DNA from: Bradyrhizobium septentrionale
GTDB lineage: Bacteria; Pseudomonadota; Alphaproteobacteria; Rhizobiales; Xanthobacteraceae
Direction: 5' to 3'
NCBI RefSeq assembly: GCF_011516645.4
Contig: NZ_CP088285.1
Location: 5,784,501 to 5,848,500 of the forward strand
Length of the DNA: 64,000 nt
In this document: one piece after another, positions 26,987 to 45,666 of the stretch
Layout: each line of letters begins with the position of its first letter
How positions within the stretch are numbered: the stretch's first letter is position 1
Notes under the pieces: model-generated
The model's database searches: none
What the model saw: only the letters and a program-made list of their open reading frames with translations
Told to the model about the DNA's origin: nothing
Made by a program: the position numbers and the translations under genes

Positions 26987-28291
26987 TTAGACGTGAACTG
27001 CGGTGCGAACACGGCCGACATTGCCGAACACGCGCAAATAGCGCTCGACCTCGGACGGGATGCCGGTCGCCTTCTCCGGATTGTCGGAGAGCTTCACAGC
27101 CGGCCGCCCATCGACCGACGTCACCTTGCAGACGATCGAGATCGGATCGAGGGCCGCGGTGCCGTCGGGCGCGCAGCCGACGAAATCGTTGGTGAGGTTG
27201 GTGCCCCAGCCGAAGCTGACGCGCACGCGTCCCTTGAAGTGCTGGAACGTCTCCTCGATCGAGCCGACGTCCATCGCGTCGGAGAACACCAATAGCTTCT
27301 CCTTGGGATCGCGGCCCTTCTGCTTCCACCACTTGATGATGTCTTCGCCGGCCGTGATCGGCGGCGCGCTGTCGGGACGAAAGCCGGTCCAGTCGGCGAC
27401 CCAGTCGGGCGCGTCGCGCAGGAACGGCTTGGTGCCGAAGGCATCGGGCAGGGCGATCAGCAGGTTGCCGCCATAGGTGTGGCGCCACTGGTCGAGGATG
27501 CGATAGGGCGCCCAGCGCAGCGCCTCGTCGTCGTTGGCGAGCGCGGCGGCCACCATCGGCAGCTCATGGGCGTTGGTGCCGATCGCCTCGAGGTCATTGT
27601 CCATCGCGAGCAGCACGTTCGACGTTCCGGTGAAGGACGGACCGAGGCCTTCCTTCACCGCCTCGACGCACCAGCGCTGCCAGAGGAAACCGTGGCGACG
27701 GCGCGTGCCGAAATCGGACAGCCGCAGGCCGTCCAGCTTGCGCAGCCGCTCGACCTTCGCCCACAGCTTGGCCTTGGCGCGGGCATAGAGCACGTCGAGC
27801 GCGAAGCGGCCGTAGGTCTTGGTCGCGGCGCGCGAGCGCAACTCATTGAGGATCGCGAGCGCAGGGATCTCCCACATCGTGGTGTGGGTCCACGGCCCGT
27901 GGAAATGCAGTTCATACTGGCCGTCGACCTTGTGCAGCTCGTATTCGGGCAGGCGGAAGGCCGAGAGCCAGTTGATGAAATCGGGCGAGAACATCTGGGT
28001 CTTGCCGTAGAACGTGTTGCCGGCGAGCCAGATCAATTCCTTCTTGGTGAAGCGGATGGTGCGGGCGTGGTCGAGCTGGGCGCGCAGCTCGCCCTCGTCG
28101 ATGACCTCGGCAAGCCGGATATGGGTCGAGCGGTTGATCACCGAAAAGGTCGTGCGCGTGTCCGGATAGCATTCCCGGATCATCTGCTGCATCAACAGCT
28201 TGTAGAAATCGGTGTCCAGCAGGCTGCGCACGATCGGGTCGAGCCGCCAGCCATGGTTGTAGGTCCGGGTCGCGATATCTGTCACGGTCAT
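26987..28291 (-). CDS. pncB: Nicotinate phosphoribosyltransferase
   Basis: 434 residues. Family landmarks are [15 protein letters not shown] near the N-terminus, [17 protein letters not shown] then [12 protein letters not shown] (the catalytic His region), GTSNVLLA and [14 protein letters not shown] (the phosphate-binding end). The enzyme converts nicotinate and PRPP to nicotinate mononucleotide, the salvage route to NAD. It lies 61 bp downstream of the nicotinate dehydrogenase large-subunit gene on the same strand, so salvage and degradation of the same compound probably share one operon. Confidence 0.95.
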
Positions 28292-28352
28292 GCGGGAACC
28301 TTAGCCTGCCGGGCGCCGCCCGCCCAGTGGGTATCGGGCGGAACATGGCAGG

Positions 28353-31300
28353 TCAGCGCGCTATGGTCTGCCGTATACGGCCGACCGATGCGGCGACATC
28401 GGTCCATTCCGGCTTGCCCGGGGCAAATTGCCGCCGCAGGAACGTGACGAGCTCGGCGACCTGGCCGTCGCTCATGCTGTCCCTGAAGGCCGGCATGTAG
28501 CCGAGATCGGTCACGGCAGGCTTGGCGATGCCGTGCATGATCACCTGGATCAGATTGTCGGGGACATCGCTGTGCAGATTGCTGTTGAGCGCCAGCGATG
28601 GCCGGCTGCCGAACAGCGGCGGTCCGCCGACCTCATGGCAGACGGCGCAGGCGCCTTGATAGATCCGCGCGCCGGCCGACGCCGCGGTGGTGACGGCGGT
28701 GGCGGTTTCGAGCTTGGCAACCAGGGCATCGTGAGCCGGCCGATCGGCCGGCTCGTTGAACGAGGCGAGGTAGACCGCCATCGCGCGGATGTCCTGATCG
28801 GGCAGCGCGGCGAGCTCCTGCACGACCGGCGCCATCGGTCCCGCGGCAACGCCGTGGAAGCGGGACTCGCCGGTGCGCAAATAGGCGTAAAGCTCGTCCT
28901 CGCTCCAGGGGATCGGCGCCTTCGACAGCGACGTCAGTGCCGGCGCCTCCCAGCCCTCGGCGAAGCCGCCGGCGAGATAGGCGGCCTGCCGTTCGGCGCC
29001 GAGCGCATTGCGCGGCGAGTGGCAGGCGCTGCAATGGCCGAGACCTTCGATCAGATAGGCACCGCGATTCCAGATTTCCGATTTCGATCGATCAGGCTGG
29101 AACGTATCAGGCTGATGGAACAGCGCATTCCATCCAGCGAGCAGCGGGCGCAGGCTGAACGGAAAGGGCAACGCATTGCGAGGAGTTTCGGCGCGCACCG
29201 GCGCCTGCGCCATCAGATAGGCGTAGAGCGCCTGCAGATCGGCATCACTGGTCCTGGCGAAATGCGTGTACGGAAATGCCGGATAGAGATGGCGTCCGTC
29301 GCGATGAATGCCCTCGCGCATCGCACGCTCGAAGGCGGGATAGGACCAGGCGCCGATCCCGGTGTCGATGTCGGGCGTGATGTTGGTCGTGGTGATGACG
29401 CCGAACGGCGTCTCGAGCGGCCGGCCGCCGGCGTTCACGATGCCATGCTCCGAGGTGTGACAGACGGCGCAGGCGCCAAGCCCTGCGAGCTGCTTGCCGC
29501 GCGCGATTGTCGCGGTGGAATAGACCGAGGCATCGGGCCGGGCGATCGGCGCGATCGCGCGCCAGGGCAATACGGCCGCGCCGATCCCGATGGCGGCGGC
29601 GCAGAGCGCGGCAATGCCAGCGAGGAGGCCGCCGCGCTTTGCAAACGGATTCTGCCATCTGTTGAGGTCAGCCGTCTGCGCAGGTGGCGGAAGCGGCGCC
29701 GGCGCAGCGGGCTGTTCGCCGTACAGCCCCTTCAAAATGCGTTCCGGCGTGAACGGCAATTCGCGGAAGCGCACGCCGGTCGCGTCATAGATCGCGTTGG
29801 CGATCGCGGCGGCGCTCGGCACCGAGGCGGACTCGCCGACGCCGAGCGGTGGCTGGTCCTGCCGCGGCAGCATCAACACATCGACCTTGGGCAGATCGGG
29901 GAATTGGATGATGGGGTAGGCGCCCCATTCCCGCGCCGCCACCGCGCCTCGCTCGAAGGAGACTTCTTCCATCAGCGCGCGGCTGGTCGACTGGATGACA
30001 TTGCCTTCGATCTGATGCCGTACCCCTTCCGGATTGATCATCAATCCGGAATCCTGGCCGGCGACGACGCGCGTCACGCTGACATCGCCGGTCGCCTTGT
30101 TGACCGCGACGTCGGCAATCCAGGCCGACCATGCCGCACCATAGCCGGGAAACTTGCTGTGCACGTAGAGCGCATAGGCAAAGCCGCGGCCGCGGACGAT
30201 GTCGCCTTCCGCCTCGGGCGCCTCGCGCACCGGGCGCGGCGTCCAGCCGGCGCGTTCGGCAACCGCGTTGACGAGGTCGATCGCGCGCTTGTCCTTCAGA
30301 TAGCGCAGCCGGTACTCGATCGGATCGACTTTGGCCTCGGCGGCAAGCTCGTCGATATAGGATTCATGCGCAAAGGTGTTCGGCAGCGCCGACACGCCGC
30401 GAAACCAGGAGGCGCGCACGATCGGCGGCATGTCGTTGGCGACGACGCGCATATTCTCGTAGTCGTAGGGCGGGATCGCGGTGCGGTCGCCCATCTCGAA
30501 CACGGCGGCTTCAGGCGCGATCCGCCCGGTGAGCAGCAGCGCCAGCGTCGGCGCGCCGTTCGACGGATAGCGCGTGGAAAAATTGTAACCGGCGACGCTG
30601 CCGTCGGCGTTGAGCCCGCCATTGACGTCCATCAGCTGCGCGGTGCCCTTCGGCTCCCAGGCATGCTCCTGCTCGCGGGTCAGCTGCACGCGCACCGGGC
30701 GGCCGACCGCGCGCGACAGCAACAGCGCATCGGCGGAGACGTCGTCGGCGCAGTTGCGGCCGTAACAGCCGGCGGCCTCCATCCTGACGACTTCGATCTC
30801 GGATTCCGGTCGCTGGATCAGCAGCGCCAGATCGCTGCGCAGGATGTGCGGGTTCTGCGTGCCGGACCAGACGCGGATCGCGCCCTCGCCGTAGTCGGCG
30901 ACCGCGCAGGACGGCCCGATCGAGCCGTGCATCTGGTAGGGCCAGAGGTAGGTCCGTTGCATCGGCTTGGCGGCAGCCTTGATCGCGGCATCGACGTCGC
31001 CCTTGTCGATCAGCTGGCGCGGCGTCGAGGGATTGGCGCGCAGCGCCTTCTCGATGTCGGCAAGATCGGTCAGCGCCGGTCCCGGCTTCCAGCTCACCTT
31101 GAGCAGCGCGGCGGCCTTGATCGCGTTCTCCTCGCGCTCGGCGACGACGCCGACGAAATCGCCGATCCGCACCACCGCGACGAGGCCGGGGATGTCGCGC
31201 ACCGAATCCTCGTCGACCGCGATCAGGCTGGTGCCGACGAACGGGCCGGCATCGACGCCGGCGTAAGGCGGGCGGACGACACGGCCGTGCAGCATGCCGG

Positions 31301-31886
31301 ATACACGCACATCGTGGACATAGACGAGCTCGCCGGTGGCCTTCGCCGGCAGGTCGACCCGCGGCACCGACTTGCCGACGACGGAATAGGCACTGACGGC
31401 CTTGACCGGAACGTCGTCGGCGAGCTCGAGCCGGATGGTCTCGTCCGCGATCAACTCGCCATAGCTGACGCTGCGATTATCGTGACCGCGGACCAGGCCG
31501 TCCTCGATCGTGAGTTCGTCGACCGGCAGCTCGAGCCGCTCGGCCGCGCGCGCGAGCAGGAAATGCCGCGCCTGCGCCGCGGCCTTGCGCAAGGGAGCGG
31601 CGGTGATCTGGATGGTTTCGCTCGCGATCGTCGCGCCCTGGTTCGGCACCACGGCGGTGTCACCGAGGATCACGACGACGCGGGCAAACGACACGTCGAG
31701 TTCTTCGGCAACGATCTGCCCGAGCGCGGTGCGGATGCCGGTGCCGAGATCGACATGGCCGTTATAGGCATTGACCGAACCGTCGGCGGTGATGGCGATG
31801 AAGGTCTCGAACGCGCCTTCCGCGCCGAGCACCGCGGGGCGAACGACGGACAGCGAGCCGCGCATGCGTTGCTCCGATCCCGCCAT
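28353..31886 (-). CDS. nicB: Nicotinate dehydrogenase large subunit: molybdopterin domain fused to three-heme cytochrome c
   Basis: 1177 residues. The first ~720 are a xanthine-dehydrogenase-family molybdenum subunit (GHVDLGTGIRTAL, GTQNPHILRSDLALLI, ASWFRGVSALPNTFAHESYIDELA, PLGVGESASVPSAAAIANAI). A proline linker and one membrane helix near residues 750-775 follow, then three c-type heme sites: CAVCH at 806, CSACH at 952 and CAVCH at 1080. This fusion is the layout of NicB from Pseudomonas putida, which hydroxylates nicotinate at C6 and passes electrons through its hemes to the respiratory chain. The ATG at 31886 overlaps the nicA stop as TGATG. Assignment to nicotinate rests on this layout plus adjacent hnr, pncB and a co-regulated enamidase; another N-heterocycle cannot be ruled out. 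Confidence 0.85.
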   Translation of the reverse strand: MAGSEQRMRGSLSVVRPAVLGAEGAFETFIAITADGSVNAYNGHVDLGTGIRTALGQIVAEELDVSFARVVVILGDTAVVPNQGATIASETIQITAAPLRKAAAQARHFLLARAAERLELPVDELTIEDGLVRGHDNRSVSYGELIADETIRLELADDVPVKAVSAYSVVGKSVPRVDLPAKATGELVYVHDVRVSGMLHGRVVRPPYAGVDAGPFVGTSLIAVDEDSVRDIPGLVAVVRIGDFVGVVAEREENAIKAAALLKVSWKPGPALTDLADIEKALRANPSTPRQLIDKGDVDAAIKAAAKPMQRTYLWPYQMHGSIGPSCAVADYGEGAIRVWSGTQNPHILRSDLALLIQRPESEIEVVRMEAAGCYGRNCADDVSADALLLSRAVGRPVRVQLTREQEHAWEPKGTAQLMDVNGGLNADGSVAGYNFSTRYPSNGAPTLALLLTGRIAPEAAVFEMGDRTAIPPYDYENMRVVANDMPPIVRASWFRGVSALPNTFAHESYIDELAAEAKVDPIEYRLRYLKDKRAIDLVNAVAERAGWTPRPVREAPEAEGDIVRGRGFAYALYVHSKFPGYGAAWSAWIADVAVNKATGDVSVTRVVAGQDSGLMINPEGVRHQIEGNVIQSTSRALMEEVSFERGAVAAREWGAYPIIQFPDLPKVDVLMLPRQDQPPLGVGESASVPSAAAIANAIYDATGVRFRELPFTPERILKGLYGEQPAAPAPLPPPAQTADLNRWQNPFAKRGGLLAGIAALCAAAIGIGAAVLPWRAIAPIARPDASVYSTATIARGKQLAGLGACAVCHTSEHGIVNAGGRPLETPFGVITTTNITPDIDTGIGAWSYPAFERAMREGIHRDGRHLYPAFPYTHFARTSDADLQALYAYLMAQAPVRAETPRNALPFPFSLRPLLAGWNALFHQPDTFQPDRSKSEIWNRGAYLIEGLGHCSACHSPRNALGAERQAAYLAGGFAEGWEAPALTSLSKAPIPWSEDELYAYLRTGESRFHGVAAGPMAPVVQELAALPDQDIRAMAVYLASFNEPADRPAHDALVAKLETATAVTTAASAGARIYQGACAVCHEVGGPPLFGSRPSLALNSNLHSDVPDNLIQVIMHGIAKPAVTDLGYMPAFRDSMSDGQVAELVTFLRRQFAPGKPEWTDVAASVGRIRQTIAR

Positions 31887-32353
31887 CAATCGCGCGCCTC
31901 GAGCGCGTGGCCGGCCGCGCGCATGGCCGCGCGGACGATCTCGATATGCGCGCCGCAGCGGCAGAGATTGTAGCGCAGTGCTTCCAGCACCTCATGCTCG
32001 GAAGGGTTCGGGTTGCGCGTCAGCAGCGCCTTGGTGGTGATGATCATGCCGTTCAGGCAATAGCCGCACTGTGCGGCCTGTTCGCGGATGAAGGCATCCT
32101 GCACCGGGTCGGGATGCTCGCGGCTGCCGAGACCTTCGAGCGTGACGATGCTGCGTCCCGCGCAGCCTTCGATCGGAATCACGCAGGAACGTGCGGCGAC
32201 GCCGTCGATCAGCACCGCGCAGGCGCCGCACTCGCCGAGCCCGCAGCCATATTTCGGTCCGTTCAATGCGAGGTCGTTGCGCAGCACGTAAAGCAATGCG
32301 GTGTCGGGAGCGGCGTCGACATCGAGATTCCTGCCGTTCACGGTCAGGCGCAT
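31886..32353 (-). CDS. nicA: Nicotinate dehydrogenase small subunit (two [2Fe-2S] clusters)
   Basis: 155 residues, the normal size for NicA-type small subunits. Cys37, 42, 45 and 57 form the plant-ferredoxin-like cluster (GCGLGECGACAVLIDG); Cys96, 99, 131 and 133 form the second one (CGYCLNGM and CRCG). It passes electrons from the molybdenum site in NicB to the hemes. The ATG at 32353 is chosen because it begins at the conserved MRLTVNGR; a longer frame to 32470 would run through the promoter. The promoter just upstream (32412-32439) has a perfect 18-bp palindrome in its spacer. Confidence 0.88.
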   Translation of the reverse strand: MRLTVNGRNLDVDAAPDTALLYVLRNDLALNGPKYGCGLGECGACAVLIDGVAARSCVIPIEGCAGRSIVTLEGLGSREHPDPVQDAFIREQAAQCGYCLNGMIITTKALLTRNPNPSEHEVLEALRYNLCRCGAHIEIVRAAMRAAGHALEARD

Positions 32354-32411: not shown

Positions 32412-32439
32412 AGGATAACGTTTGTATACAAACGTGCAA
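32412..32439 (-). promoter_or_regulatory. Predicted nicA promoter with operator in the spacer
   Basis: On the reverse strand TTGCAC (32439-32434) and TATCCT (32417-32412) are separated by 16 bases, and that spacer is almost entirely the palindrome at 32418-32435. A protein bound there would exclude RNA polymerase. Confidence 0.55.
32418..32435. promoter_or_regulatory. 18-bp perfect palindrome, nicotinate-regulon operator 1
   Basis: ACGTTTGTATACAAACGT is a perfect palindrome centred on GTATAC, 64 bp upstream of the nicA start. The half GTATACAAACG recurs at 44819-44829 in the ena/fpr promoter region. Confidence 0.75.
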
Positions 32440-32523: not shown

Positions 32524-32552
32524 TTGACAGGTCTCAAGCTCGCGCGCAGGAT
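32524..32552 (+). promoter_or_regulatory. Predicted hnr operon promoter
   Basis: TTGACA (32524-32529), a 17-base spacer, then a weak -10 CAGGAT (32547-32552). The palindrome at 32551-32570 would cover the -10 end and the transcription start. Confidence 0.45.
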
Positions 32553-32570
32553 CATTCGTATACGAATGAT
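32551..32570. promoter_or_regulatory. 20-bp perfect palindrome, nicotinate-regulon operator 2
   Basis: ATCATTCGTATACGAATGAT is perfectly palindromic and lies 61 bp upstream of the hnr start. Its right part GTATACGAATGAT is found base for base at 44805-44817 between ena and fpr. Confidence 0.75.
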
Positions 32571-32631: not shown

Positions 32632-34080
32632 ATGGCTGACACAATGACCGTCGCCGCCGGCGACAAGATTCGCTGCGATGCCTGTCCGGTGATGTGCTAC
32701 ATCAAGCCGGGCGCGGCCGGCGCCTGCGATCGCTACGCCAACCACGATGGCACGCTGGTGCGTGTCGATCCGCATGTAGTGCTGGAGCGCACCGTCTCGC
32801 ATGGCGGCAAGCTGGTGCCGTTCCAGGTGAGCGGCGACTGGGACGGCAAGATCGTCCGCCAGCCCGATCTCTTCGTCACCGCGATCGGCGCCGGAACCAC
32901 CTATCCGGACTACAAGCCGGCGCCTTTCATCGTGTGGTCGGAGGTTGACGGCGTCGACATGGTCACAGTCGTGACCGAAGGCATTTTCTCCTATTGCGGC
33001 GTCAAGGTGAAGATCGACACCGACCGCTATCTCGGCCCGGAAACCGCTATTGTCCGCGCGGAGGGCGAGGCGGTCGGCCATGTCACGACCAGCGAATATG
33101 GCTCGCAGATGCTTTCGCTTGGCGGCGTGCATCATCTGACCGGCGGCTCCAAGAAGGAGGGCCGCGTCACCTGCGACACGCTGATGGATCTGTCCAACTG
33201 CAAGGCGGTGGAGCTTGTGATCGATGGCGGCGCCACGGTCGTGGTTCAGGCGGGCCAGCCGCCGATCGTCAATGGTGTGGCGGAAGAGCGCATGCGGGTC
33301 GGCTGCGGCTCGGCGACCATCGGCATGTTCGCCAAGCAATGGCACGGCAAGGTCGATGAAGTCGTGGTGGTCGACGACCATATCACCGGCGTGCTCAGCG
33401 AGCACCAGGCCGGCAAGCTGCTCGACATCGCCGACACCGGTATCAAGATGAAGGGCCGGCGTTCGACGCCCGGCCGCTATTTCCAGGTCGCCGATCCCGG
33501 CACCGGATGGGGCGGCACCAACATCTCCGATCCGCTGTCGATCCTCGGTCCCTTCAATGCCAAGGAGGCGCGGCCCGGGCTCACCATGCTGATGGTCTCG
33601 ACCACCGGCGAGCATGCCTCCTACTACGTGCTCGACGGGGCGCTGAAGCCGGTCGAGACCGAGATGCCGGCGGACCTCAAATTTTCGGTCGAGCGCATCC
33701 AGGAAAATTGCGAACCGGCGCTGTGCACCGTGCTGTTCATGGGCGGCGCCGGCGGATCGCTGCGCGCCGGCGTCACCGACAACCCGGTGCGGCTGACCCG
33801 CTCGGTCAAGGACGCGCTGACGCGGGTGACCAGCGGCGGCGCACCGGTCTATGTCTGGCCCGGCGGCGGCATCACTTTCATGGTCGATGTGACGCAAATG
33901 CCGGCCGGCGCCTTCGGCTACGTGCCGACGCCGGCGCTGGTGGCGCCGATCGAATTCACGATGAAACTGTCCGACTATGCGGCGCTCGGCGGCCATATGG
34001 ATTATGTCCGGCCGCTGTCCTCGTTGCGGGACAGCGCCGAGGTCAGGCCGATGCCGTATCTTTCCGGGCGGCGCGCATGA
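32632..34080 (+). CDS. hnr: 6-hydroxynicotinate reductase (iron-sulfur flavoprotein)
   Basis: 482 residues. The N-terminus has Cys15, 18, 22 and 32 (CDACPVMC then GACDRY), fit for an Fe-S cluster; later cysteines lie in SYCG, VTCD, SNCK, GCGSATIG and NCEPALC. I recognise it as a homologue of the 6-hydroxynicotinate reductase of Eubacterium barkeri, which uses reduced ferredoxin to turn 6-hydroxynicotinate into 1,4,5,6-tetrahydro-6-oxonicotinate and was reported to hold a covalent flavin and several Fe-S clusters. Its placement divergent from a nicotinate dehydrogenase, and regulation shared with an enamidase homologue, support this. The ATG at 32632 is preferred to a TTG at 32623. Its stop overlaps the next start (ATGA). 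Confidence 0.85.
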   Translation: MADTMTVAAGDKIRCDACPVMCYIKPGAAGACDRYANHDGTLVRVDPHVVLERTVSHGGKLVPFQVSGDWDGKIVRQPDLFVTAIGAGTTYPDYKPAPFIVWSEVDGVDMVTVVTEGIFSYCGVKVKIDTDRYLGPETAIVRAEGEAVGHVTTSEYGSQMLSLGGVHHLTGGSKKEGRVTCDTLMDLSNCKAVELVIDGGATVVVQAGQPPIVNGVAEERMRVGCGSATIGMFAKQWHGKVDEVVVVDDHITGVLSEHQAGKLLDIADTGIKMKGRRSTPGRYFQVADPGTGWGGTNISDPLSILGPFNAKEARPGLTMLMVSTTGEHASYYVLDGALKPVETEMPADLKFSVERIQENCEPALCTVLFMGGAGGSLRAGVTDNPVRLTRSVKDALTRVTSGGAPVYVWPGGGITFMVDVTQMPAGAFGYVPTPALVAPIEFTMKLSDYAALGGHMDYVRPLSSLRDSAEVRPMPYLSGRRA

Positions 34081-34985
34081 CCAGGCTTCCGCAAATCGCG
34101 CTTCTTCCTGACGGAAAGCGGCTGCATTTGCAGGACGGCCCGATTGATCTGGTCGTCGAGGCCAAGGGCAGGGATGTGGACGTGACTGCCGCCTATCGGG
34201 CCGCCGCGGAGCGCTTCACCGGTTTGCTCGATGAATTGTGCACTGAACTCCCAGAGTTGCGCAGCGCGGCTGATCCGCGGCGATGCGCGCTGAAGGGCGT
34301 GATCGCGCAGCGCATGCACGCGGCGGTCGCGCCGTTTGCCCCCGGTTGTTTCATCACGCCGATGGCGGCCGTCGCGGGCTCGGTTGCCGAGGAAATCCTC
34401 GGCGCGATGCTGCAGACGGCAACGCTCGATCGTGCCTATGTCAACAATGGCGGCGATATCGCCCTGCATCTCGGCCATGGCGAACAATTCACCGTCGGCC
34501 TGATGGATCGGCCGGACCGCCATGGCGTGATGCGCACCATGACCGTCGATAGCGACATGCCGGTCCGCGGCATCGCCACCAGCGGCCGCCACGGCCGCAG
34601 CTTCTCGCTCGGCATCGCCGATGCCGTCACCGTGCTGGCGCGCACCGCGTCGCAGGCCGATGCTGCGGCGACCGTGATCGCCAATGATGTCGATTTGCCG
34701 GGTCATCCGGCGATCCTGCGCGTTCCGGCGTGCGAGTTGCAGCCGGACAGCGACCTCGGCGCACGGCTGGTGACGCGCGATGTCGGGCCCCTGGCGGAAC
34801 ACGAGATCGAGCAGGCGCTCGAGGCGGGGGCGGCGCGGGCGCGCGACCTCCTGACGTCGGGATTGATCGAGGGCGCGGCATTGCGTCTACTGGGCGAAAC
34901 GCGAATTGTCGGTGCAACTGGCAGCGGGACGCCGGCGTCGCACGCGTTTCAGGGACGAACGACAGACAACATGCTGCGGGCATGA
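34077..34985 (+). CDS. UPF0280 family protein (ApbE superfamily)
   Basis: 302 residues. FITPMAAVAGSVAEEILGAM, YVNNGGDIALHL, RGIATSGRHGRSFSLGIADAVTVLA and DAAATVIANDVD are the conserved blocks, laid out as in ApbE-type flavin transferases (the NNGGDIA and T(S)GRHGRSFSLGIADAVTV regions mirror the flavin- and metal-binding parts). ApbE attaches FMN covalently to Thr/Ser. The gene overlaps hnr by ATGA, and the characterised 6-hydroxynicotinate reductase carries covalent flavin, so a maturation role for Hnr is a natural hypothesis, unproven. Confidence 0.85.
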   Translation: MTRLPQIALLPDGKRLHLQDGPIDLVVEAKGRDVDVTAAYRAAAERFTGLLDELCTELPELRSAADPRRCALKGVIAQRMHAAVAPFAPGCFITPMAAVAGSVAEEILGAMLQTATLDRAYVNNGGDIALHLGHGEQFTVGLMDRPDRHGVMRTMTVDSDMPVRGIATSGRHGRSFSLGIADAVTVLARTASQADAAATVIANDVDLPGHPAILRVPACELQPDSDLGARLVTRDVGPLAEHEIEQALEAGAARARDLLTSGLIEGAALRLLGETRIVGATGSGTPASHAFQGRTTDNMLRA

Positions 34986-35005
34986 CCGGGAGCGAGGCTG
35001 ATACG

Positions 35006-35590
35006 ATGAGCGCCGTCATTCGCAAGATCGTCACCGTGGTCGAGGAGACCCATCTGGAGATGGGCAAGACCATTGCGCCGCCGACCCGGCGCGCCGCCGC
35101 GATCGCGGTGATCGAAAACCCCTTTGCCGGCCGCTATGTCGAGGATCTGTCGCCGCTGATCGCGATCGGCGAGGAGCTTGGCGAACTGCTCTCGAAGCGG
35201 GCGGTGGCCGCGCTCGGCATCGATGGCGCCAAGGCGCACAGCTACGGCAAGGCCGCCGCCGTCGGCGAGAATGGCGAGCTCGAGCACGCGGCCGCGATCC
35301 TTCATCCCAAGATGGGCGCGCCGGTGCGCAAGGTGCTGTCGAAGGGCGCGGCGCTGATCCCGTCGTCGAAGAAGCGCTCGGGCCCCGGCACCACGCTCGA
35401 TATTCCGCTCGGGCACAAGGACGCGGCCTTCGTGCGCAGCCATTTCGACGGCATGGAGGTGCAGATCAACGACGCGCCGCGGGCCAACGAGATCATGGTC
35501 GCGGTCGCGGTGACCGACAGCGGGCGGCCGCTGCCACGCGTCGGCGGGCTGACGGTCGATGAGGTCAAGGGCGAAGACGGATTGCGATAA
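35006..35590 (+). CDS. Amino acid synthesis family protein (PF06684-like)
   Basis: 194 residues. IRKIVTVVEETHLEMGK opens the protein; AAIAVIENPFAGRYVEDLSPL, SYGKAAAVGENGELEHAAAILHPKMGAPVR and GPGTTLDIPLGHKDAAFVRSHFDGMEV follow, which I recognise as the family named amino acid synthesis, a label without biochemical proof. The ATG at 35006 has a strong GGGAGCGAGG upstream; an alternative ATG at 34982 overlaps the UPF0280 stop. Being third in the hnr operon, it may act on a product of ring opening or on the unstable formyl acid, but no catalytic residue can be named. Confidence 0.8.
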   Translation: MSAVIRKIVTVVEETHLEMGKTIAPPTRRAAAIAVIENPFAGRYVEDLSPLIAIGEELGELLSKRAVAALGIDGAKAHSYGKAAAVGENGELEHAAAILHPKMGAPVRKVLSKGAALIPSSKKRSGPGTTLDIPLGHKDAAFVRSHFDGMEVQINDAPRANEIMVAVAVTDSGRPLPRVGGLTVDEVKGEDGLR

Positions 35591-37041: not shown

Positions 37042-38931
37042 ATGGCCTTCTATATCGTCCAGTTCCTGACCGGTCTTGCCAGCGCGGCGTCGCTGTTCCT
37101 GGTCGCTTCGGGTCTGTCGATCATCTTCGGGGTGACGCGGATCGTGAATTTCGCGCATGGCGCGTTCTATATGCTCGGCGCCTATGTCGCGTTCACGCTG
37201 ACCGAGCGCTTCGCCGGCGCGCTCGGCTTCTGGGGCGGCGTCGTGATCGCGGCGCTGGCGGTTGCTGCGATCGGCGTGCTGGTCGAGATGGTGCTGCTGC
37301 GCCGGATCTATCATGCTCCCGAGCTGTTCCAGTTGCTCGCCACCTTCGGCTTGACGCTGATGGTCGAAGACCTCGTGGTGTTGATCTGGGGCCCGGACGA
37401 TCTGGTCGGGCGCCGCGCGCCGGGCTTCAAGGGCGCGGTCGATTTCTTCGGCCAGAACATTCCAAGCTACGATCTGTTCCTGATCGTGCTCGGCCCCGTC
37501 GTGCTCGGCGTCCTCTGGCTGCTGTTCCAACGCACCCGCTGGGGCATCCTGGTGCGCGCGGCGACGCAGGACCGCGACATGGTCGCAGCGCTCGGCGTCA
37601 ATCAGAAATGGCTGTTCACCAGCGTGTTCGCGGTCGGCGTCTTCCTCGCCGCGCTCGGCGGCGCACTGCAGATTCCGCGGGATGCCGTGCATCACGCGAT
37701 GGATCTGCGCATTATCGTCGAGGTCTTCGTCGTGGTGGTGATCGGCGGCCTCGGCAGCATCATCGGCGCCTTTGTCGCCGCGGTGCTGGTGTCGGAGCTC
37801 AACGCCTTCGGCATCCTGATCTTCCCGAAGATCTCCATCATCCTGGTTTTCCTGGTGATGGCGGTGGTGCTGATCGTCCGTCCCTGGGGACTGTTCGGCA
37901 AGCCGGAGGCGCCGGCGCGGCGCACGCCGGGCCTCACGGTCAATCCGTGGCGGCCGCTGACGGCGAACGAGCGGATCGCCGCGATCGCCGTGCTCGTCGT
38001 CGCCGCCGCGCTGCCGTTCGTCGCCGGCAATTACGTGCTCACGGTCGGCTCGGAGATCGCGATCTTCGTGATCTTCGCGGTCAGCCTGCACTTCCTGATG
38101 TCGGTCGGCGGGCTCGCCTCGTTCGGCCATGCGGCCTATTTCGGCCTCGGCTCCTATGGCGTGGCGCTGCTCGCCAAGATGGCGGGCCTGCCGATGATCG
38201 CCTGCCTGCTGCTGGGCCCCTTGCTCGGGCTGCTCGGTGCGGCCGTGTTCGGCTTCTTCGCGGTGCAGCTCTCCGGGGTCTATTTCGCGATGCTGACGCT
38301 GGCCTTTGCCCAGATCGTCTGGTCGATCGCGTTCCAGTGGGTGTCGGTGACCGGCGGCGACAACGGCATTCTCGGGGTCTGGCCGTCGAGCTGGGCGGCG
38401 AGCCCGGCGCATTTCTACTGGCTGTCGCTCGGGATTGCCGCGCTCGCGGTCGTGATCCTCCGCGTCATCGTGTTCTCGCCGTTCGGCTTTGCGCTACGCG
38501 CCACGCGCGACTCTCCGCTGCGCAGCGAAGCGATCGGCATCAACGGCAAGCGCATCCAGTGGACTGCCTTCGTGATCGCGGGCACGGTCGCCGGTCTCGC
38601 CGGCGCGCTGTTCGCCTACCTCAAGGGCAGCGTATTCCCCGACAACATGGGCATCTCGCTGTCGGTCGATGCGCTGGTCATGGTGCTGCTCGGCGGAGTC
38701 GAGACCGTATCGGGCGCGGTGGTCGGGGCGATCGTCTACAAGGCGCTCAACATCTGGCTGGTCAGCCAGACCGATCTCTCCAAGCTCGTGCTCGGCGGCT
38801 TTGTCGTGCTGATCGTGGTCGCCTTCCCTAAGGGTATCGTCGGCACGCTGGAAGCATTGCTGCATCGCCGGCGCAAATCCGGATCGTCATCGTCACCGCT
38901 GCTCACCTCCCGCATCGAGACCGCCGAATGA
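37042..38931 (+). CDS. Fused Liv-type ABC permease (LivH-LivM)
   Basis: 629 residues in two halves. The LivH-like half (to about residue 290) has FLVASGLSIIFGVTRIVNFAHGAFYMLGAY and IIGAFVAAVLVSELNAFGI. The LivM-like half starts around residue 320 and has VSLHFLMSVGGLASFGHAAYFGLGSYGVALL and FALRATRDSPLRSEAIGING, the ATPase contact. Two separate genes are the more usual arrangement; here they are one. The ATG at 37042 is preferred to a frame extended through the PAL-C repeat. It forms the complete membrane channel with LivG and LivF. Confidence 0.92.
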   Translation: MAFYIVQFLTGLASAASLFLVASGLSIIFGVTRIVNFAHGAFYMLGAYVAFTLTERFAGALGFWGGVVIAALAVAAIGVLVEMVLLRRIYHAPELFQLLATFGLTLMVEDLVVLIWGPDDLVGRRAPGFKGAVDFFGQNIPSYDLFLIVLGPVVLGVLWLLFQRTRWGILVRAATQDRDMVAALGVNQKWLFTSVFAVGVFLAALGGALQIPRDAVHHAMDLRIIVEVFVVVVIGGLGSIIGAFVAAVLVSELNAFGILIFPKISIILVFLVMAVVLIVRPWGLFGKPEAPARRTPGLTVNPWRPLTANERIAAIAVLVVAAALPFVAGNYVLTVGSEIAIFVIFAVSLHFLMSVGGLASFGHAAYFGLGSYGVALLAKMAGLPMIACLLLGPLLGLLGAAVFGFFAVQLSGVYFAMLTLAFAQIVWSIAFQWVSVTGGDNGILGVWPSSWAASPAHFYWLSLGIAALAVVILRVIVFSPFGFALRATRDSPLRSEAIGINGKRIQWTAFVIAGTVAGLAGALFAYLKGSVFPDNMGISLSVDALVMVLLGGVETVSGAVVGAIVYKALNIWLVSQTDLSKLVLGGFVVLIVVAFPKGIVGTLEALLHRRRKSGSSSSPLLTSRIETAE

Positions 38932-39719
38932 GCATGGCCCCCACATTGCTATCGGTCGAAGGGCTGACGAAGTCCTATGGCGGCGTGCATGCCGTGCGCG
39001 GCGTCTCCTTCGAACTGCGCGCCGGCGAGATCCTGGCGCTGATCGGGCCGAACGGCGCCGGCAAGAGCACCTGCTTCGACATGCTCAACGGCCAGAATAT
39101 TCCCGATAGCGGCCGCATCCGCGTGCTCGGGGCGGAGACCACCGGCAAGAAGCCGCGCGTGATCTGGCGCATGGGCGTCGGCCGCACCTTCCAGATCGCG
39201 GCGACGTTCCCAACCATGACGGTGCGCGAGAACGTGCAGGTCGCGCTGGTGTCGTATGGCGGGCAATTGTTCAATCTGTGGGCCTCGACCGCGGGCCAGG
39301 CGCGCGGCGAGGCCGGACGGCTGCTCGATCTGGTCGGCATGGGCGCCTATGCGGAGCGGCCCTGCGGCGAGCTTGCCTATGGCGACGTCAAGCGGCTGGA
39401 GCTTGCGATCGCGCTCGCCAACCAGCCAAAACTGCTGCTGATGGACGAGCCGACCGCCGGCATGGCGCCGCGCGAGCGCGTCGAGCTGATGCGGCTGACC
39501 GCGCGGATCGCGCGCGAGCAGTCGATCGGCGTTCTCTTCACCGAGCACGACATGGATGTGGTGTTCGAACATGCCGACCGCATCCTGGTGCTCAACCGCG
39601 GCAGCCTGATCGCCGAAGGCTCGCCGGAGGAAGTCCGCGGCAACGCCCAGGTGCGGGCGATCTATCTCGGCGAAGGCTTGCTTTACGATGCGCGGCATCG
39701 CGAGGGAGCATCCGCATGA
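38928..39719 (+). CDS. livG: Liv-type ABC transporter ATP-binding protein LivG
   Basis: 263 residues with Walker A GPNGAGKST, Q-loop VGRTFQIAATFP, signature LAYGDVKRLELAIAL, Walker B LLLMDEPTAGMAP and the switch His in FTEHDMDVVF. The start overlaps the permease stop (ATGA), as does its own stop with livF, so the cassette is translated as one unit. Confidence 0.92.
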   Translation: MSMAPTLLSVEGLTKSYGGVHAVRGVSFELRAGEILALIGPNGAGKSTCFDMLNGQNIPDSGRIRVLGAETTGKKPRVIWRMGVGRTFQIAATFPTMTVRENVQVALVSYGGQLFNLWASTAGQARGEAGRLLDLVGMGAYAERPCGELAYGDVKRLELAIALANQPKLLLMDEPTAGMAPRERVELMRLTARIAREQSIGVLFTEHDMDVVFEHADRILVLNRGSLIAEGSPEEVRGNAQVRAIYLGEGLLYDARHREGASA

Positions 39720-40420
39720 AGCTCACGGTGAAGGACCTCAACAGCTTCTACGGTCCGGCGCACATCCTGTTCGACATCGCGCTCGAGGTCGGCGAGGGCG
39801 AGGTGGTGGCATTGCTCGGGCGCAACGGCGCCGGCAAGTCGACCACGTTCCGCTCCATCGTCGGGCTGGTCGAGAACCGCTCCGGCCGCATCATGTTCGA
39901 GGGCAGGGACGTGTCGGAGCTGCCGACGCACGCGATCGTGCGCGGCGGCCTCGGCTATGTGCCGGAAGAGCGGCGCATCTTCACCGATCTGACGGTCGAG
40001 GAAAATCTCGAGGTCGGCCGCCAGCCGAAACGGGCTGGCGCGCCGCAATGGGACCGCGACAAGCTGTTCAAGCTGTTTCCGAACCTCGGCGAGATGCGGG
40101 GACGGCCCGGCGGGCGCATGAGCGGCGGCGAGCAGCAGATGCTGACGATCGCGCGCACGCTGATGGGCAATCCGTCGCTGGTGCTGCTCGATGAGCCGTC
40201 GGAGGGCCTGTCGCCGAAGATCGTCGAGCAGATGGTCGATGCGATCCTGGCGATGAAGAAAGAAGGCGTCAGCATCGTCGTCTCCGAGCAGAATTTGCAT
40301 TTCGCCCGGCTGATCTCGGATCGCGCCTATATCATCGAGCGCGGCCGGATCTGTTTCGGCGGCACCATGGCGGAACTCGATGCGCGTCCGGATGTCCGCG
40401 ACGCGCATCTGTCGCTGTAA
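39716..40420 (+). CDS. livF: Liv-type ABC transporter ATP-binding protein LivF
   Basis: 234 residues. Walker A GRNGAGKST, Q-loop VPEERRIF, signature MSGGEQQMLTIARTL, Walker B LVLLDEPSEGLSP, and Q instead of H after SE (IVVSEQNLHFA), normal for LivF. It pairs with LivG at 38928 to power the fused permease of the hnr operon. A second LivF lies at 63255 but belongs to a different transporter. Confidence 0.92.
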   Translation: MKLTVKDLNSFYGPAHILFDIALEVGEGEVVALLGRNGAGKSTTFRSIVGLVENRSGRIMFEGRDVSELPTHAIVRGGLGYVPEERRIFTDLTVEENLEVGRQPKRAGAPQWDRDKLFKLFPNLGEMRGRPGGRMSGGEQQMLTIARTLMGNPSLVLLDEPSEGLSPKIVEQMVDAILAMKKEGVSIVVSEQNLHFARLISDRAYIIERGRICFGGTMAELDARPDVRDAHLSL

Positions 40421-40435: not shown

Positions 40436-40891
40436 ATGGCGAGGAGTGCTGCACAGAAGCGAAACGGGAAGGCGGCGAAGCCGGGTTACGTGCTGGACGA
40501 GCAGATCGGCTTCATCCTGCGCCAGGTGTCGCAGCGCCACGCCATGATCTTTGCCCGCGAGATCGGCATCAACCTGACGCCGACGCAGTGGGCCGCGCTG
40601 TCGAAGCTGTCGGAGGTCGGAGCCTGCTCGCAGAACCAGCTTGGGCGGCTGACCTCGATGGACGTTGCGACCATCAAGGGCGTGATCGATCGCCTGACCG
40701 CGCGCGGCCTGACCGAAACCTCGCCCGATCCCGACGACGGCCGCCGGCTGATGGTCAGTTTGACGCGCGCGGGCCAGCAGATGGCCGACAAGGCCGCGCC
40801 GAACGCGTTTACGATCTCCAAGGAGACATTGGCGCCGCTCGACGCCAAGGAGCGCGAGACGCTGATGGCGCTGCTCGGCAAGCTGCGGTGA
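40436..40891 (+). CDS. MarR family regulator, NicR-like candidate
   Basis: 151 residues with a winged helix-turn-helix: LTPTQWAALSKLSEVGACSQNQLGRLTSMDVATIKGVIDRLTARGLTETSPDPDDGRRLMVSLT. The N-terminal YVLDEQIGFILRQVSQRHAMIF forms the dimer helix. MarR proteins commonly repress nearby catabolic genes until an aromatic acid binds; the nicotinate regulators NicR and BpsR belong to this family. It starts 15 bp after livF, so it is the last gene of the hnr operon. It is the nearest candidate to bind the GTATAC palindromes at 32418, 32551 and 44799, although FadR-type GntR proteins bind similar sites. Confidence 0.85.
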   Translation: MARSAAQKRNGKAAKPGYVLDEQIGFILRQVSQRHAMIFAREIGINLTPTQWAALSKLSEVGACSQNQLGRLTSMDVATIKGVIDRLTARGLTETSPDPDDGRRLMVSLTRAGQQMADKAAPNAFTISKETLAPLDAKERETLMALLGKLR

Positions 40892-40904
40892 TGCAGAACC
40901 ATGA

Positions 40905-41073: not shown

Positions 41074-41742
41074 CTATCTCGAAACACCAAGGGCCAGCGC
41101 GACGGCGCCGACCAGCACCAGGCTGAGCGCCCAAACCGCGTCCAGATTGAACCAGCTCCGCGCCACGAATTTGAGACCCAGATAGCGGTAGACCAGCCAC
41201 GCCAGACATCCACCGGCGGCGATCATCGCGCCGGCATGGACGAGGGAGACCAGCACGGCCATCGTGAGGCTGGTGTCGATCAGGCTGTTGGCGGCCGCGT
41301 GGCCCTGGTCCGGCGCAGCCTCGCGGCAGAGCCCCAGATAGATCGGCACCAGCATCAGCGCCGCGCCGTGGGCGATCGCCACCGCGAAGGACCACAAGGC
41401 GAGTTGCGTCGGTGGTATCCGCGCCAAGGCTCGTGGATGGCGCCGGTCGATCAGCCGATAGAGGCCGAACAAGATCACAAGCAGGCTGGCGCCGATCCGG
41501 ATCGTGCGCTGCCATTCGACAAGAGTGACGAGCAATGCAAAGGGCAGGATCACGAGCAGCATCGCCAGCAGGTGGCCGATTGCGAGCGGGCCGAGCGCGG
41601 CCAGCAGCGCGCGCGAACTCCTTTGCATCAAACCCGCTGAAACCGCGAGCGGCCAGCCCATGCCCGGGTTGATCCCGTGGTAGAGTCCGCTCGCGATGAC
41701 CGCCAGCCACAGCCAGGCCGGTGTCCAGTCGGCTGCACCCAC
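41074..41742 (-). CDS. Multi-pass membrane protein downstream of methanethiol oxidase
   Basis: 222 residues with six or so membrane helices. The first contains LWLAVIASGLYHGINPGMGWPLAVSAGL, followed by LGPLAIGHLLAMLLVILPFALL and WSFAVAIAHGAALMLVPIYLGL; the GHLLAM and YHGINPGMGW stretches hold conserved-looking His and Gly that could bind a metal ion, as in small metal exporters. I cannot name a family. The GTG start at 41742 lies 2 bp after the oxidase stop, so the two are coupled and this protein may deliver a cofactor metal (SBP56-type oxidases contain copper) or move a product. Confidence 0.65.
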   Translation of the reverse strand: MGAADWTPAWLWLAVIASGLYHGINPGMGWPLAVSAGLMQRSSRALLAALGPLAIGHLLAMLLVILPFALLVTLVEWQRTIRIGASLLVILFGLYRLIDRRHPRALARIPPTQLALWSFAVAIAHGAALMLVPIYLGLCREAAPDQGHAAANSLIDTSLTMAVLVSLVHAGAMIAAGGCLAWLVYRYLGLKFVARSWFNLDAVWALSLVLVGAVALALGVSR

Positions 41743-41744
41743 AT

Positions 41745-43145: not shown

Positions 43146-43391
43146 CGTGCTGCCTCCTGTTTGTCTGGTGTGGACCAACACGGCGCGGCGGCATGCGGCA
43201 GGAACTAATCCGGATCGTCGCGTGTCTCTTGTGAGTGCCGCCGGCTAGGTTCGCGTGGCGGCACGATACACCCCAATGGTGACAGGTGAAAGCAACGTTC
43301 CGGTGCGGTAAGATGGCACATAATGCACGGGTTACGTCATTCCGGGTTGGCGCTTGATGACCCTGCTCGGCGAGCTGCGCTGAAGCGATCA

Positions 43392-43504: not shown

Positions 43505-43522
43505 AGCGATTGCAGTTATTGC

Positions 43523-44719
43523 CTACTTCGCCACGATCTCCGGCACCTTGCCGGCGGGCGGCGTGTTGCGGCTGCGCTGGGTACGGACGATGCCGTCGAT
43601 AATGGTCATGCCGATGCCCGGGAGGTCGCCGAGCTGAACGCTCTCCAGGATGTTCTTGCCCGGCGAGTGCTGCGCCTTGTCCATCAGCACGAAATCGGCG
43701 GAGCGGCCAACCTCGATCAGGCCGCAATCGAGCTCGCGCATCCGCGCGGTGTTGCCGGTGGCGAGGCAGAACGCCAGTTCGGCGGGGAGCTCCCCGAGCG
43801 AGGACAGCAGCGACACCATCCGCAAGATGCCGAGCGGCTGCACGCCGGAGCCGGCGGGCGCGTCGGTGCCGAGGATGACGCGGTGCAGGTCGCCCATCTC
43901 GCGCGCGGTGCGCAGCGTGAACAGCGCCGAGCGCTCATTGCCGTTGTGCACCAGCTCGAGCCCGCGCTTGCAGCCCTCGCAGATGCAGCGGATCTGGTCG
44001 TCCGGCAGTGCGGTGTGGCCGCCATTGATGTGGCCGACCACGTCGGTGTCGGCCTCCAGCACCACATCCTTGTCGATCAGGCCGGAGCCCGGGATCGAGG
44101 GGCCGCCGGTGTGGATCGTGCTCTGGATGCCGTATTTGCGCGCCCAGCCGACCATCTTGCGCGCGGTCGGACCGTCCTTGACGCCGCCGAGCCCGACCTC
44201 GCCGAGCAGCTTGACGCCGGCGGCGGCCAATTCCTTGAAATCGTCCTCGACCATCTCGCATTCGATCACCGGCGCACCGGCATGCACCTTCACGCCGCCC
44301 GGCCGCAGCGTCCAGAACGCGCGCTGCGCGAAGATCGCCATCGCCTTCAGCCCGACCACGTCGCGCGGACGCCCGGGCATGTGCACCTCGCCGGCGGAGA
44401 TCATGGTGGTGACGCCGCCGTGCAGATAGCTGTCGATCCAGTTGGTCTGGTTCTGCCGCGGCGTCCAGTCGCCGGCGACGGGATGGACGTGGCTGTCGAT
44501 CAGGCCGGGCGCGACCGTCGTGCCATTGGCGTCGACGATGGTGGTGGCGCCTTCGGTGTCGACGTCCTTGAGGCGGCCGATCGCAGTGATCTTGCCGTTC
44601 TCGGCGACGATGGTATCGGCGTCCAGGATAGGCCTTTCCATGGCTCCCGACAGCAGTAGCCCGATATTGCGGATCACCAGCTTGCTCGGGCCGGTGGCCT
44701 GGGGCGCGTCGTGAGCCAT
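43523..44719 (-). CDS. ena: Enamidase (1,4,5,6-tetrahydro-6-oxonicotinate amidohydrolase)
   Basis: 398 residues. The metal motif is LIDSHVHPVAGDWTPRQ with His77 and His79, followed by HGGVTTMISAGEVHMPGRPRD, GEVGLGGVKD (where a metal-bridging residue is expected), HTGGPSIPGS, GHINGGHTAL and GTDAPAGSGVQPLGILR, ending SRNTPPAGK. These blocks match what I recall of the Eubacterium barkeri enamidase, an Fe/Zn amidohydrolase that opens tetrahydro-oxonicotinate to 2-formylglutarate and ammonia. The ATG at 44719 has AAGGAAAA upstream and is preferred over a longer frame to 44788. It is divergent from a ferredoxin-NADP reductase with a double operator between them, linking it to hnr 10 kb away. Confidence 0.88.
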   Translation of the reverse strand: MAHDAPQATGPSKLVIRNIGLLLSGAMERPILDADTIVAENGKITAIGRLKDVDTEGATTIVDANGTTVAPGLIDSHVHPVAGDWTPRQNQTNWIDSYLHGGVTTMISAGEVHMPGRPRDVVGLKAMAIFAQRAFWTLRPGGVKVHAGAPVIECEMVEDDFKELAAAGVKLLGEVGLGGVKDGPTARKMVGWARKYGIQSTIHTGGPSIPGSGLIDKDVVLEADTDVVGHINGGHTALPDDQIRCICEGCKRGLELVHNGNERSALFTLRTAREMGDLHRVILGTDAPAGSGVQPLGILRMVSLLSSLGELPAELAFCLATGNTARMRELDCGLIEVGRSADFVLMDKAQHSPGKNILESVQLGDLPGIGMTIIDGIVRTQRSRNTPPAGKVPEIVAK

Positions 44720-44798
44720 GGGTGTTTTCCTTCTGTTGTCTTTCCGAAATTGCCCGGGAATTTGAGCCCGGCTTGACTTTCGGATCAAGCCGGATTAT

Positions 44799-44830
44799 TC
44801 GTTTGTATACGAATGATCGTATACAAACGA
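44799..44830. promoter_or_regulatory. Double GTATAC operator between ena and fpr
   Basis: TCGTTTGTATACGA (44799-44812) and TCGTATACAAACGA (44817-44830) are exact inverted copies separated by 4 bases. Each contains one GTATAC core; the two cores are 14 bp apart. The sequence shares GTATACGAATGAT with the hnr operator and GTATACAAACG with the nicA operator. TTGACT (44773-44778) with TATTCG (44796-44801) could be the fpr promoter; TTGACC on the reverse strand followed 16 bases later by TACGAT inside the operator could be that of ena. Confidence 0.75.
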
Positions 44831-44892
44831 TCCGGCCGGTCAACGGGGTTCAAGTCCTCGCCCAGCCGCAGCACAGATCAGGGATTGGTGCG

Positions 44893-45666
44893 ATGAGCAA
44901 TTTCAACCAGGAAAGCGTCCTCAGCGTTCATCACTGGACCGACACGCTGTTCTCCTTCACCACCACCCGCAACCCGTCGTTCCGCTTCCGCAACGGCGAG
45001 TTCACCATGATCGGGCTCAAGGTCGGCGAGAAGCCGCTGTTGCGGGCCTACAGCGTCGCCAGCGCGAATTACGAGGACACGCTCGAGTTCTTCTCGATCA
45101 AGGTTCCGGACGGCCCGCTGACCTCGCGCCTCCAGCATCTCAAGGAAGGCGACGAGATCATCGTCAGCCGCAAGGCCACCGGCACGCTGGTCATCGACAA
45201 CCTCGAGGACGGCCGCAACCTCTATCTGGTCGGCACCGGGACCGGCCTCGCCCCGTTCCTGAGCGTGATCAAGGACCCCGAGACCTATGACCGCTTCGAG
45301 AAGGTCGTGCTGCTGCACGGCTGCCGCCGCGTCAAGGAGCTCGCCTATGGCGAGATGATCACCGAGCGGCTGCCGCAGGACGAGATGATCGGCGATCTCG
45401 TGCGCGACCAGCTGATCTACTACCCGACCGTGACGCGCGATCCGTTCCGCAATCGCGGCCGCATCACCGATCTCATCACCTCGGGCAAGCTGTTCGCCGA
45501 CATCGGCCTGCCGGCGCTCGATCCCGCGCATGACCGCGTCATGATCTGCGGCTCGCCGGCGCTGGTCGCCGACACCCGCACGCTGCTGAATGGTCGCGGC
45601 TTCGTCGAGGGCAATCACGGCGAGCCCGCGCAGTTCGTGGTCGAGAAGGCGTTCGCCGAGCGTTGA
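44893..45666 (+). CDS. fpr: Ferredoxin-NADP+ reductase
   Basis: 257 residues of the bacterial FPR type. RAYSVAS is the FAD-binding motif, GTLVIDNL and LVGTGTGLAPFLSVIKD are the flavin and NADP loops, and VMICGSPALVADTRTLL the NADP ribose region; the C-terminal VVEKAFAER is the usual end. It exchanges electrons between NADPH and ferredoxin. Being divergent from the enamidase with a shared operator, it is well placed to supply reduced ferredoxin to 6-hydroxynicotinate reductase. Confidence 0.93.
   Translation: MSNFNQESVLSVHHWTDTLFSFTTTRNPSFRFRNGEFTMIGLKVGEKPLLRAYSVASANYEDTLEFFSIKVPDGPLTSRLQHLKEGDEIIVSRKATGTLVIDNLEDGRNLYLVGTGTGLAPFLSVIKDPETYDRFEKVVLLHGCRRVKELAYGEMITERLPQDEMIGDLVRDQLIYYPTVTRDPFRNRGRITDLITSGKLFADIGLPALDPAHDRVMICGSPALVADTRTLLNGRGFVEGNHGEPAQFVVEKAFAER

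Follow-up and report, generated by a model that had tools for sequence, protein, structure and literature searches.

A probable nicotinate catabolic regulon in Bradyrhizobium septentrionale, with possible roles for its UPF0280 and DUF1185 proteins

A stretch of 64,000 nucleotides from Bradyrhizobium septentrionale (contig NZ_CP088285.1, positions 5,784,501 to 5,848,500; the whole stretch is called the window below), belonging to a 10.4-Mb, Bradyrhizobium-like genome, contains two divergent sets of genes whose products resemble enzymes of nicotinate breakdown (Table 1). In the first, genes for a nicotinate phosphoribosyltransferase (pncB) and for both subunits of a NicAB-type dehydrogenase face away from a homologue of the 6-hydroxynicotinate reductase (HNR) gene, hnr, which is followed by genes for a UPF0280/COG2122 protein, a DUF1185 protein, a Liv-type ATP-binding cassette (ABC) transporter and a MarR regulator; in the second, genes for an enamidase and a ferredoxin-NADP reductase (FNR) lie on either side of a double operator. 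A NicAB-type dehydrogenase, HNR, enamidase and an ABC transporter are found in one neighbourhood. Family membership, neighbourhood and operators, all read from the sequence, point to a regulon for nicotinate catabolism of the type known from Azorhizobium and Bradyrhizobium, a reading that we consider very probable, and it is from these that we infer which reactions the strain carries out, what the regulator responds to and which route the electrons take. All the genes named in the original prediction for this DNA appear where expected in the list of open reading frames (ORFs); its inventory passed over two others, those for the UPF0280 and DUF1185 proteins.

Table 1. Genes and operators of the predicted nicotinate regulon, in window coordinates
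Feature	Position	Strand	Basis and remarks
pncB, nicotinate phosphoribosyltransferase	26987..28291	-	NCBIfam NF003704, E 3e-150, above cut-off
nicB-type molybdopterin subunit, C-terminus a three-heme cytochrome c tail	28353..31889	-	Pfam
nicA-type [2Fe-2S] subunit	31886..32353	-	Pfam Fer2, Fer2_2; ORF called to 32470, ATG at 32353 the likely start
operator ACGTTTGTATACAAACGT	32418..32435	.	perfect 18-bp palindrome upstream of nicA; identical sequence in locus L060
operator TCATTCGTATACGAATGA	32552..32569	.	perfect palindrome upstream of hnr; palindrome search
hnr, 6-hydroxynicotinate reductase homologue	32632..34080	+	database names, alignment; ORF from TTG 32623
UPF0280/COG2122, ApbE-superfamily protein	34077..34985	+	NCBIfam NF003322, E 7e-128
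DUF1185/AA_synth protein	34982..35590	+	Pfam PF06684, E 1.2e-74
Liv-type ABC substrate-binding protein	35620..36834	+	judged by eye from ORF
fused LivH/LivM-type permease	37042..38931	+	by eye; ORF from GTG 36916
LivG-type ATPase	38928..39719	+	judged by eye
LivF-type ATPase	39710..40420	+	by eye; start approximate
MarR regulator	40436..40891	+	Pfam MarR
enamidase	43523..44719	-	PDB 2vun; ORF called to 44788, 44719 the likely start
double operator of the enamidase-FNR intergenic region	44797..44831	.	less symmetrical than the other two
FNR, pathway-associated paralogue	44893..45666	+	ORF called from 44722

The conservation of these genes was followed in 80 HNR-bearing stretches of genome_contigs, the best of 592 that were confirmed, a homologue being a match that spans more than half of the query (some flanks are short, and the counts are hence lower bounds), and in 398 genomes that sample the phylum evenly, 32 of which have HNR. 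Where the 80 loci include named Bradyrhizobium records, their HNR proteins share 87-98% identity with that of the window. NicB of the Pseudomonas type combines molybdenum-binding domains with three c-heme sites. Both are present in the window protein (1178 residues), which matches MoCoBD_1, MoCoBD_2 (two stretches), Cytochrom_C and Cytochrome_CBB3 in a Pfam scan and has CXXCH motifs at residues 807, 953 and 1081; the domains, the motifs and the positions of the genes agree with the three-heme NicA/NicB-type dehydrogenase, divergent from an HNR homologue, that had been predicted. A nicA homologue occurs in 68 of the 80 loci (45 at 50% identity or more), the molybdenum part of NicB in 49 (46 at 50% or more) and its cytochrome part in 43. 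In loci from beyond the Bradyrhizobium group, a different molybdenum dehydrogenase often comes before HNR; its Fe-S and molybdenum parts are fused (22 loci), and it has a flavin adenine dinucleotide (FAD) subunit and no cytochrome tail.

No Pfam or NCBIfam family was matched by HNR at E <1e-3, and a profile search of the PDB returned nothing below E 0.079. Among the 120 of 8000 matches listed, several close relatives bear the name "6-hydroxynicotinate reductase" in NCBI and JGI records, while others are hypothetical proteins. 6-Hydroxynicotinate reductase is reported to have a covalent flavin and Fe-S clusters; an N-terminal Cys-x2-Cys-x3-Cys-x9-Cys is invariant in our 14-member alignment. The HNR homologue of strain SG-6C is 42% identical to that of Eubacterium barkeri by BLAST, its role being a prediction that rests on this kind of comparison with the E. 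barkeri cluster (PMC3511419). A weak match to Pfam GCV_T_C (best E 2e-4, with values up to 10 admitted) was also obtained with all of 27 HNR members, over residues 126-161 of the window protein (32998-33105), a stretch that is possibly a barrel domain in common with the glycine cleavage T-protein. In one genome (G056:C1:2969823-2971192) hnr is split across two frames, by a frameshift or a sequencing error.

The enamidase is similar over its full length to the E. barkeri enzyme (PDB 2vun; E 1.6e-107, with 176 of 384 aligned residues, or 46%, identical), the next amidohydrolase lying far behind at E 1.4e-5, and the metal-ligand motifs HVH, GEVGLG, HTGG, HINGG and DAP all align. This comparison with a characterised enzyme, to which the original prediction had looked, leaves the assignment standing. 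Its neighbour across the double operator matches solved ferredoxin-NADP reductases (E 6e-116) and is accompanied elsewhere in the genome by two close paralogues (65% and 62% identity). Enamidase homologues are found in 44 of the 80 HNR loci and FNR homologues in 32. That this FNR is a third paralogue and recurs in these HNR loci supports a reductase associated with the pathway, which would feed HNR, probably via ferredoxin. That enamidase and FNR are chance neighbours outside the pathway is hardly credible: they lie 9.4 kb from hnr, and the intervening genes (41074-43181, between marR and the enamidase gene), for an SBP56/methanethiol oxidase family protein and a small membrane protein without a Pfam match, recur in only five of the 80 loci, yet a double operator of the same kind sits between the two genes, and the frequency of both in HNR loci speaks for their membership.

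The partnership is not universal, and this weighs against the reading. Among 17 HNR genomes searched whole, an enamidase orthologue is missing from five, and the copy of a sixth is interrupted by a stop codon (several of these genomes are draft bins), so HNR is not tied to enamidase as the ring opener. From this, and from the other molybdenum dehydrogenase in many loci, it appears that the hnr gene goes with different first enzymes and perhaps with different ring openers.

The operators of the window are all centred on GTATAC and are found in both divergent intergenic regions; CATTCGTATACGAATG has two matches at three mismatches or fewer, against 0.14 expected, and one of 100 shuffles reached two. 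Under a strict rule (at least eight of nine pairs), 48 sites were found in 33 of the 80 HNR loci, and none in any of three first-order Markov copies of the same loci. Every one of the 48 lies less than 350 bp from the start of a pathway gene, the nearest start being that of hnr for 28, nicA for 14, ena for three, and pncB, marR and fnr for one each. Two points reduce the weight of these figures: the double site between ena and fnr in the window fails the strict rule, and the loci with strict operators come mostly from Bradyrhizobium and near kin, and hence are not independent. The MarR protein, which has homologues in 56 of the 80 loci, has PDB 2nnn as its best match (E 2e-45), followed by BpsR (6pcp; E 1.2e-22). 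BpsR binds 6-hydroxynicotinate through Tyr15, His23, Arg26 and His32 (PMC6837509); in an alignment, the window protein conserves the Tyr, the Arg and one His of this site, and Phe26 takes the place of His23, so that the set of four is incomplete. To judge from the alignment it may still work like BpsR, as a likely 6-hydroxynicotinate-responsive repressor.

In the pathway that we propose, NicAB would hydroxylate nicotinate at C6, its cytochrome tail handing the electrons on to respiration; HNR, supplied with low-potential electrons (probably from the nearby FNR via ferredoxin), would convert 6-hydroxynicotinate to 1,4,5,6-tetrahydro-6-oxonicotinate; and enamidase would open the ring to give 2-formylglutarate and ammonium. 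The UPF0280 protein might attach the covalent flavin of HNR, and the DUF1185 protein might take 2-formylglutarate to glutarate semialdehyde. A BpsR-like MarR repressor would occupy the GTATAC palindromes, with 6-hydroxynicotinate likely derepressing both divergent pairs.

As far as 2-formylglutarate this is the route originally predicted, and it is supported by homology, by neighbourhood and by the common operator, which was rightly expected at the enamidase and FNR genes too, if in a less symmetrical form. The joining of an aerobic and a reductive half is already in print as a prediction: clusters are listed for Azorhizobium (AZC_2804-2790), B. japonicum USDA110 (blr3818-3830), R. palustris HaA2 and strain SG-6C, which BLAST searches starting from the E. 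barkeri cluster (Alhapel 2006) had brought to light (Shettigar 2012, PMC3511419). The same source cites Kitts 1989/1992 for the Azorhizobium chemistry, to which the original prediction had also pointed, and a route common to E. barkeri and Azorhizobium is also stated in PMC9304392. For Azorhizobium ORS571 a strain with an insertion in its nicotinate dehydrogenase has been described (PMC3357923). The window is a further member of this known cluster type, and the outline of the hypothesis was published before. In gene content, the window differs from the Azorhizobium cluster by the SBP56 and membrane protein genes inserted before the enamidase gene.

Two better known systems help to place the cluster. 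The HNR and enamidase steps are common to the window and the E. barkeri fermentation, which by contrast reportedly begins with a four-subunit, Se-containing dehydrogenase and includes the reduction of 2-formylglutarate to hydroxymethylglutarate; the first enzyme in the window is instead a NicAB with cytochrome c. This it shares with the nic cluster of Pseudomonas putida, which continues by the decarboxylative NicC route. NicC, NicX and NicF were predicted to be absent here, and a Pfam scan (E up to 1e-10) of 20 flanking proteins of the window, the rest of the genome lying outside the search, found none of the families that we would expect for them.

NicAB-type enzymes are a broad class, and in other lineages the hnr gene adjoins a different molybdenum dehydrogenase with an FAD subunit, so one might suppose that the cluster serves another N-heterocycle (a pyridine carboxylate besides nicotinate), its NicAB, HNR and enamidase having been turned to an analogue. 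Against this, pncB, which by its family is the salvage branch of nicotinate, adjoins nicB (and is present in 17 of the 80 loci), the cluster genes have an operator and a BpsR-like regulator in common, and 6-hydroxynicotinate is degraded by strain SG-6C, which carries this type of cluster (PMC3511419); we consider such a substrate very unlikely.

The most constant partner of HNR is the UPF0280 protein. It is present in all 32 HNR genomes of the phylum sample (E <=6e-59), always on the same strand and less than 600 bp downstream of hnr, whereas the 366 genomes without HNR gave no strong match and three weak ones (E 4e-4 to 1e-3). In the locus sample it is found in 78 of 80, within 1 kb downstream of hnr in 77 and 8 kb away in one (L103); the two loci without it nearby (L099 and L122) belong to genomes that have the gene elsewhere. 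ApbE flavinyltransferases are marked by metal-site A-D-A-x-A-T and GG-D motifs, and the window protein has NNGGD at 124 and ADAAAT at 195, the core residues of which are invariant or nearly so across 27 UPF0280 sequences. It also matches PDB 2o34 (E 4e-9), and a weak match to Pfam ApbE was obtained with 20 of the 27 sequences (E up to 10, best 2.5e-5). We propose by analogy that UPF0280 may work like ApbE, not that it is ApbE. In a survey of 41 relatives, of which 26 have HNR, ApbE above the family cut-off was missing from 14 of the 26, the window genome included. Ten of these 14 were inspected, and in all ten UPF0280 was seen directly next to hnr; in one of them (G013) the sole, sub-threshold ApbE match is the UPF0280 gene itself.

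Since HNR of E. barkeri reportedly carries its flavin covalently, UPF0280 is a natural candidate for its attachment. That it is the maturase that installs this flavin is possible, at something less than an even chance; in open-licence papers, to which our literature searches were confined, we did not find this suggestion. Several observations count against it. With E 2.5e-4 and 21.1 bits, the window protein falls short of the curated Pfam ApbE cut-off of 25.6; 12 of the 26 HNR-positive relatives do carry ApbE; the UPF0280 copy of one HNR genome (G445, that of locus L099) has an internal stop codon; and an alignment of HNR relatives revealed no conserved acceptor motif. COG2122 also partners DUF39 in homocysteine synthesis, in which we know of no covalent flavin. 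Finally, the homology of COG2122 to ApbE seems, according to Price 2018 (PMC5764234), not to reach the flavin-binding region. A DGGAT motif of HNR was considered as the flavinylation site and set aside, its Thr being Ile, Pro or Ser in some relatives.

The link with DUF39 bears directly on what UPF0280 may do. In Desulfovibrio, COG2122 is required together with DUF39 and NIL/ferredoxin for homocysteine synthesis, by a mechanism described as unsettled (PMC5764234). DUF39 (PF01837) was found in six of 149 acidobacterial genomes, in all six with a COG2122 gene within about 500 bp (on the same strand in five), and in none of 249 genomes of Pseudomonadota; for 20 of the 149, the UPF0280 profile gave six DUF39-linked cases and one HNR-linked (G437), and none in the 13 others. 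The UPF0280/COG2122 family therefore partners two different Fe-S-linked enzymes, HNR and DUF39. As an alternative to flavin attachment, UPF0280 might help HNR to mature through sulfur or Fe-S chemistry, in line with the persulfide trafficking suggested for the pair of COG2122 and DUF39. Such chemistry is favoured by earlier authors (PMC5764234, PMC12068725), and HNR holds invariant Cys residues; on the other hand UPF0280 retains ApbE-like motifs, and HNR and DUF39 have no detectable homology (hhalign P 0.24, 0.16 and 0.083, none significant), so that a common sulfur chemistry does not follow. We regard this alternative as doubtful. A resemblance between HNR and DUF39 noticed by eye was discarded (it was the best 22-column window, and the best 15-column window was about the mean of 200 column shuffles), as were three apparent fusions of HNR with UPF0280 or of DUF39 with COG2122 (P0060, P0216 and P0360), once thought of as Rosetta-stone evidence, the joints of which look by eye like frameshifts.

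The other overlooked gene, for the DUF1185 protein, would concern the far end of the pathway. The protein matches PDB 2qtp (E 4e-88), and PF06684 occurs in 59 of the 398 phylum genomes, 31 with HNR and 28 without. The gene adjoins that for UPF0280 in 31 of the 32 HNR genomes, and all 44 enamidase-bearing loci among the 80 have it too. Neighbourhoods of about 12.5 kb were taken from 20 of the 28 HNR-less genomes, with one representative identified for each cluster of neighbours and the DUF1185 ORF itself called in 18; aldehyde dehydrogenases recur in 17, luciferase-like monooxygenases in 13, alpha/beta hydrolases in 12 and flavin reductases of two kinds in seven and four. These neighbourhoods resemble, so far as the analogy goes, the trigonelline operon. 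In both the trigonelline and the nicotinate routes, a hydrolase should release a 2-formyl dicarboxylate ahead of a semialdehyde dehydrogenase. On the strength of the trigonelline-like neighbourhoods and of this analogous chemistry, we suggest tentatively that a decarboxylation or tautomerisation by the DUF1185 protein yields glutarate semialdehyde from 2-formylglutarate, an idea not found in our searches of open-licence papers. According to the original prediction, no gene of the window accounts for what becomes of 2-formylglutarate; with this candidate, that may be wrong. In the trigonelline route, where the ring opener is a two-component flavin monooxygenase and not the enamidase of the window, DUF1185 lies beside a hydrolase and an aldehyde dehydrogenase. 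Its member there, TgnF, reportedly stimulates the oxidation of succinate semialdehyde (cited in PMC7913881). Structures of the family, known since 2010, show a Bacillus chorismate-mutase type of fold in which residues of the cavity are conserved, and led to a general suggestion of function (PMC2954203).

Two facts weigh against an enzymatic role: one HNR genome (G178) has no DUF1185, and in the HcdD work the authors observed none from the DUF1185 protein that they studied, as far as any effect is concerned (PMC7913881). No aldehyde dehydrogenase was noted among the recurrent HNR neighbours, of which only some clusters were identified. DUF1185 might instead be a regulatory or binding partner, or have a role in uptake, with 2-formylglutarate decarboxylating spontaneously. 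The HcdD result would fit this, and Liv-type transport genes adjoin DUF1185 genes both in the structure paper (PMC2954203) and in the window; yet a compact acidobacterial locus (L107, 6401-14757), comprising genes for an FAD subunit, an Fe-S/molybdenum dehydrogenase, HNR, UPF0280, two DUF1185 proteins and enamidase, has no Liv homologue in 21 kb, and its DUF1185 genes lie between those for UPF0280 and enamidase. Such an accessory role is quite conceivable, if short of probable.

The Liv-type genes are putatively for nicotinate uptake, and the corresponding ABC genes have been called a putative nicotinate transporter (PMC3511419). Homologues of the substrate-binding protein are found in 49 of the 80 HNR loci, of the fused permease in 45, and of the LivG- and LivF-type ATPases in 54 and 53, respectively (43 of each at 50% identity or more).

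Other genes surround the cluster. Directly beside the FNR gene, ORFs that by eye are c-type cytochrome, SoxY/SoxZ-like and flavocytochrome-like (45835-49115) look like a thiosulfate-oxidation (sox) cluster. Further on, separate from the nicotinate genes, are a second molybdopterin subunit and its [2Fe-2S] partner (49172-51884; MoCoBD_1/2, Fer2_2). On the other side, an ORF that by eye is alpha/beta-hydrolase-like (24899-25642), with homologues in 10 of the 80 HNR loci, has a C-terminus that looks abruptly different and is possibly a frameshifted or truncated gene; its presence makes the predicted absence of NicD less certain than that of NicC, NicX and NicF.

A wider reading of these observations is that UPF0280 is a second class of flavin maturase, obligatory for HNR and for DUF39 aldehyde sulfurtransferases, and that DUF1185 proteins are 2-formyl-dicarboxylate decarboxylases or tautomerases; as a whole we consider it improbable. 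The resemblance to the homocysteine pathway (PMC5764234) lies in the shared UPF0280/COG2122 family, and the link of COG2122 with HNR would bear on both nicotinate and homocysteine pathways. If the wider reading were true, DUF39 of methanogens and sulfate reducers would depend on the same UPF0280 flavin chemistry, and DUF1185 would connect the hydrolysis of the enamide with the oxidation of the semialdehyde on both the nicotinate and the trigonelline route, the two proteins completing the gene list from 6-hydroxynicotinate to glutarate semialdehyde. What this locus adds to a cluster type already described is a pair of testable roles for two families of unsettled function, UPF0280 and DUF1185.

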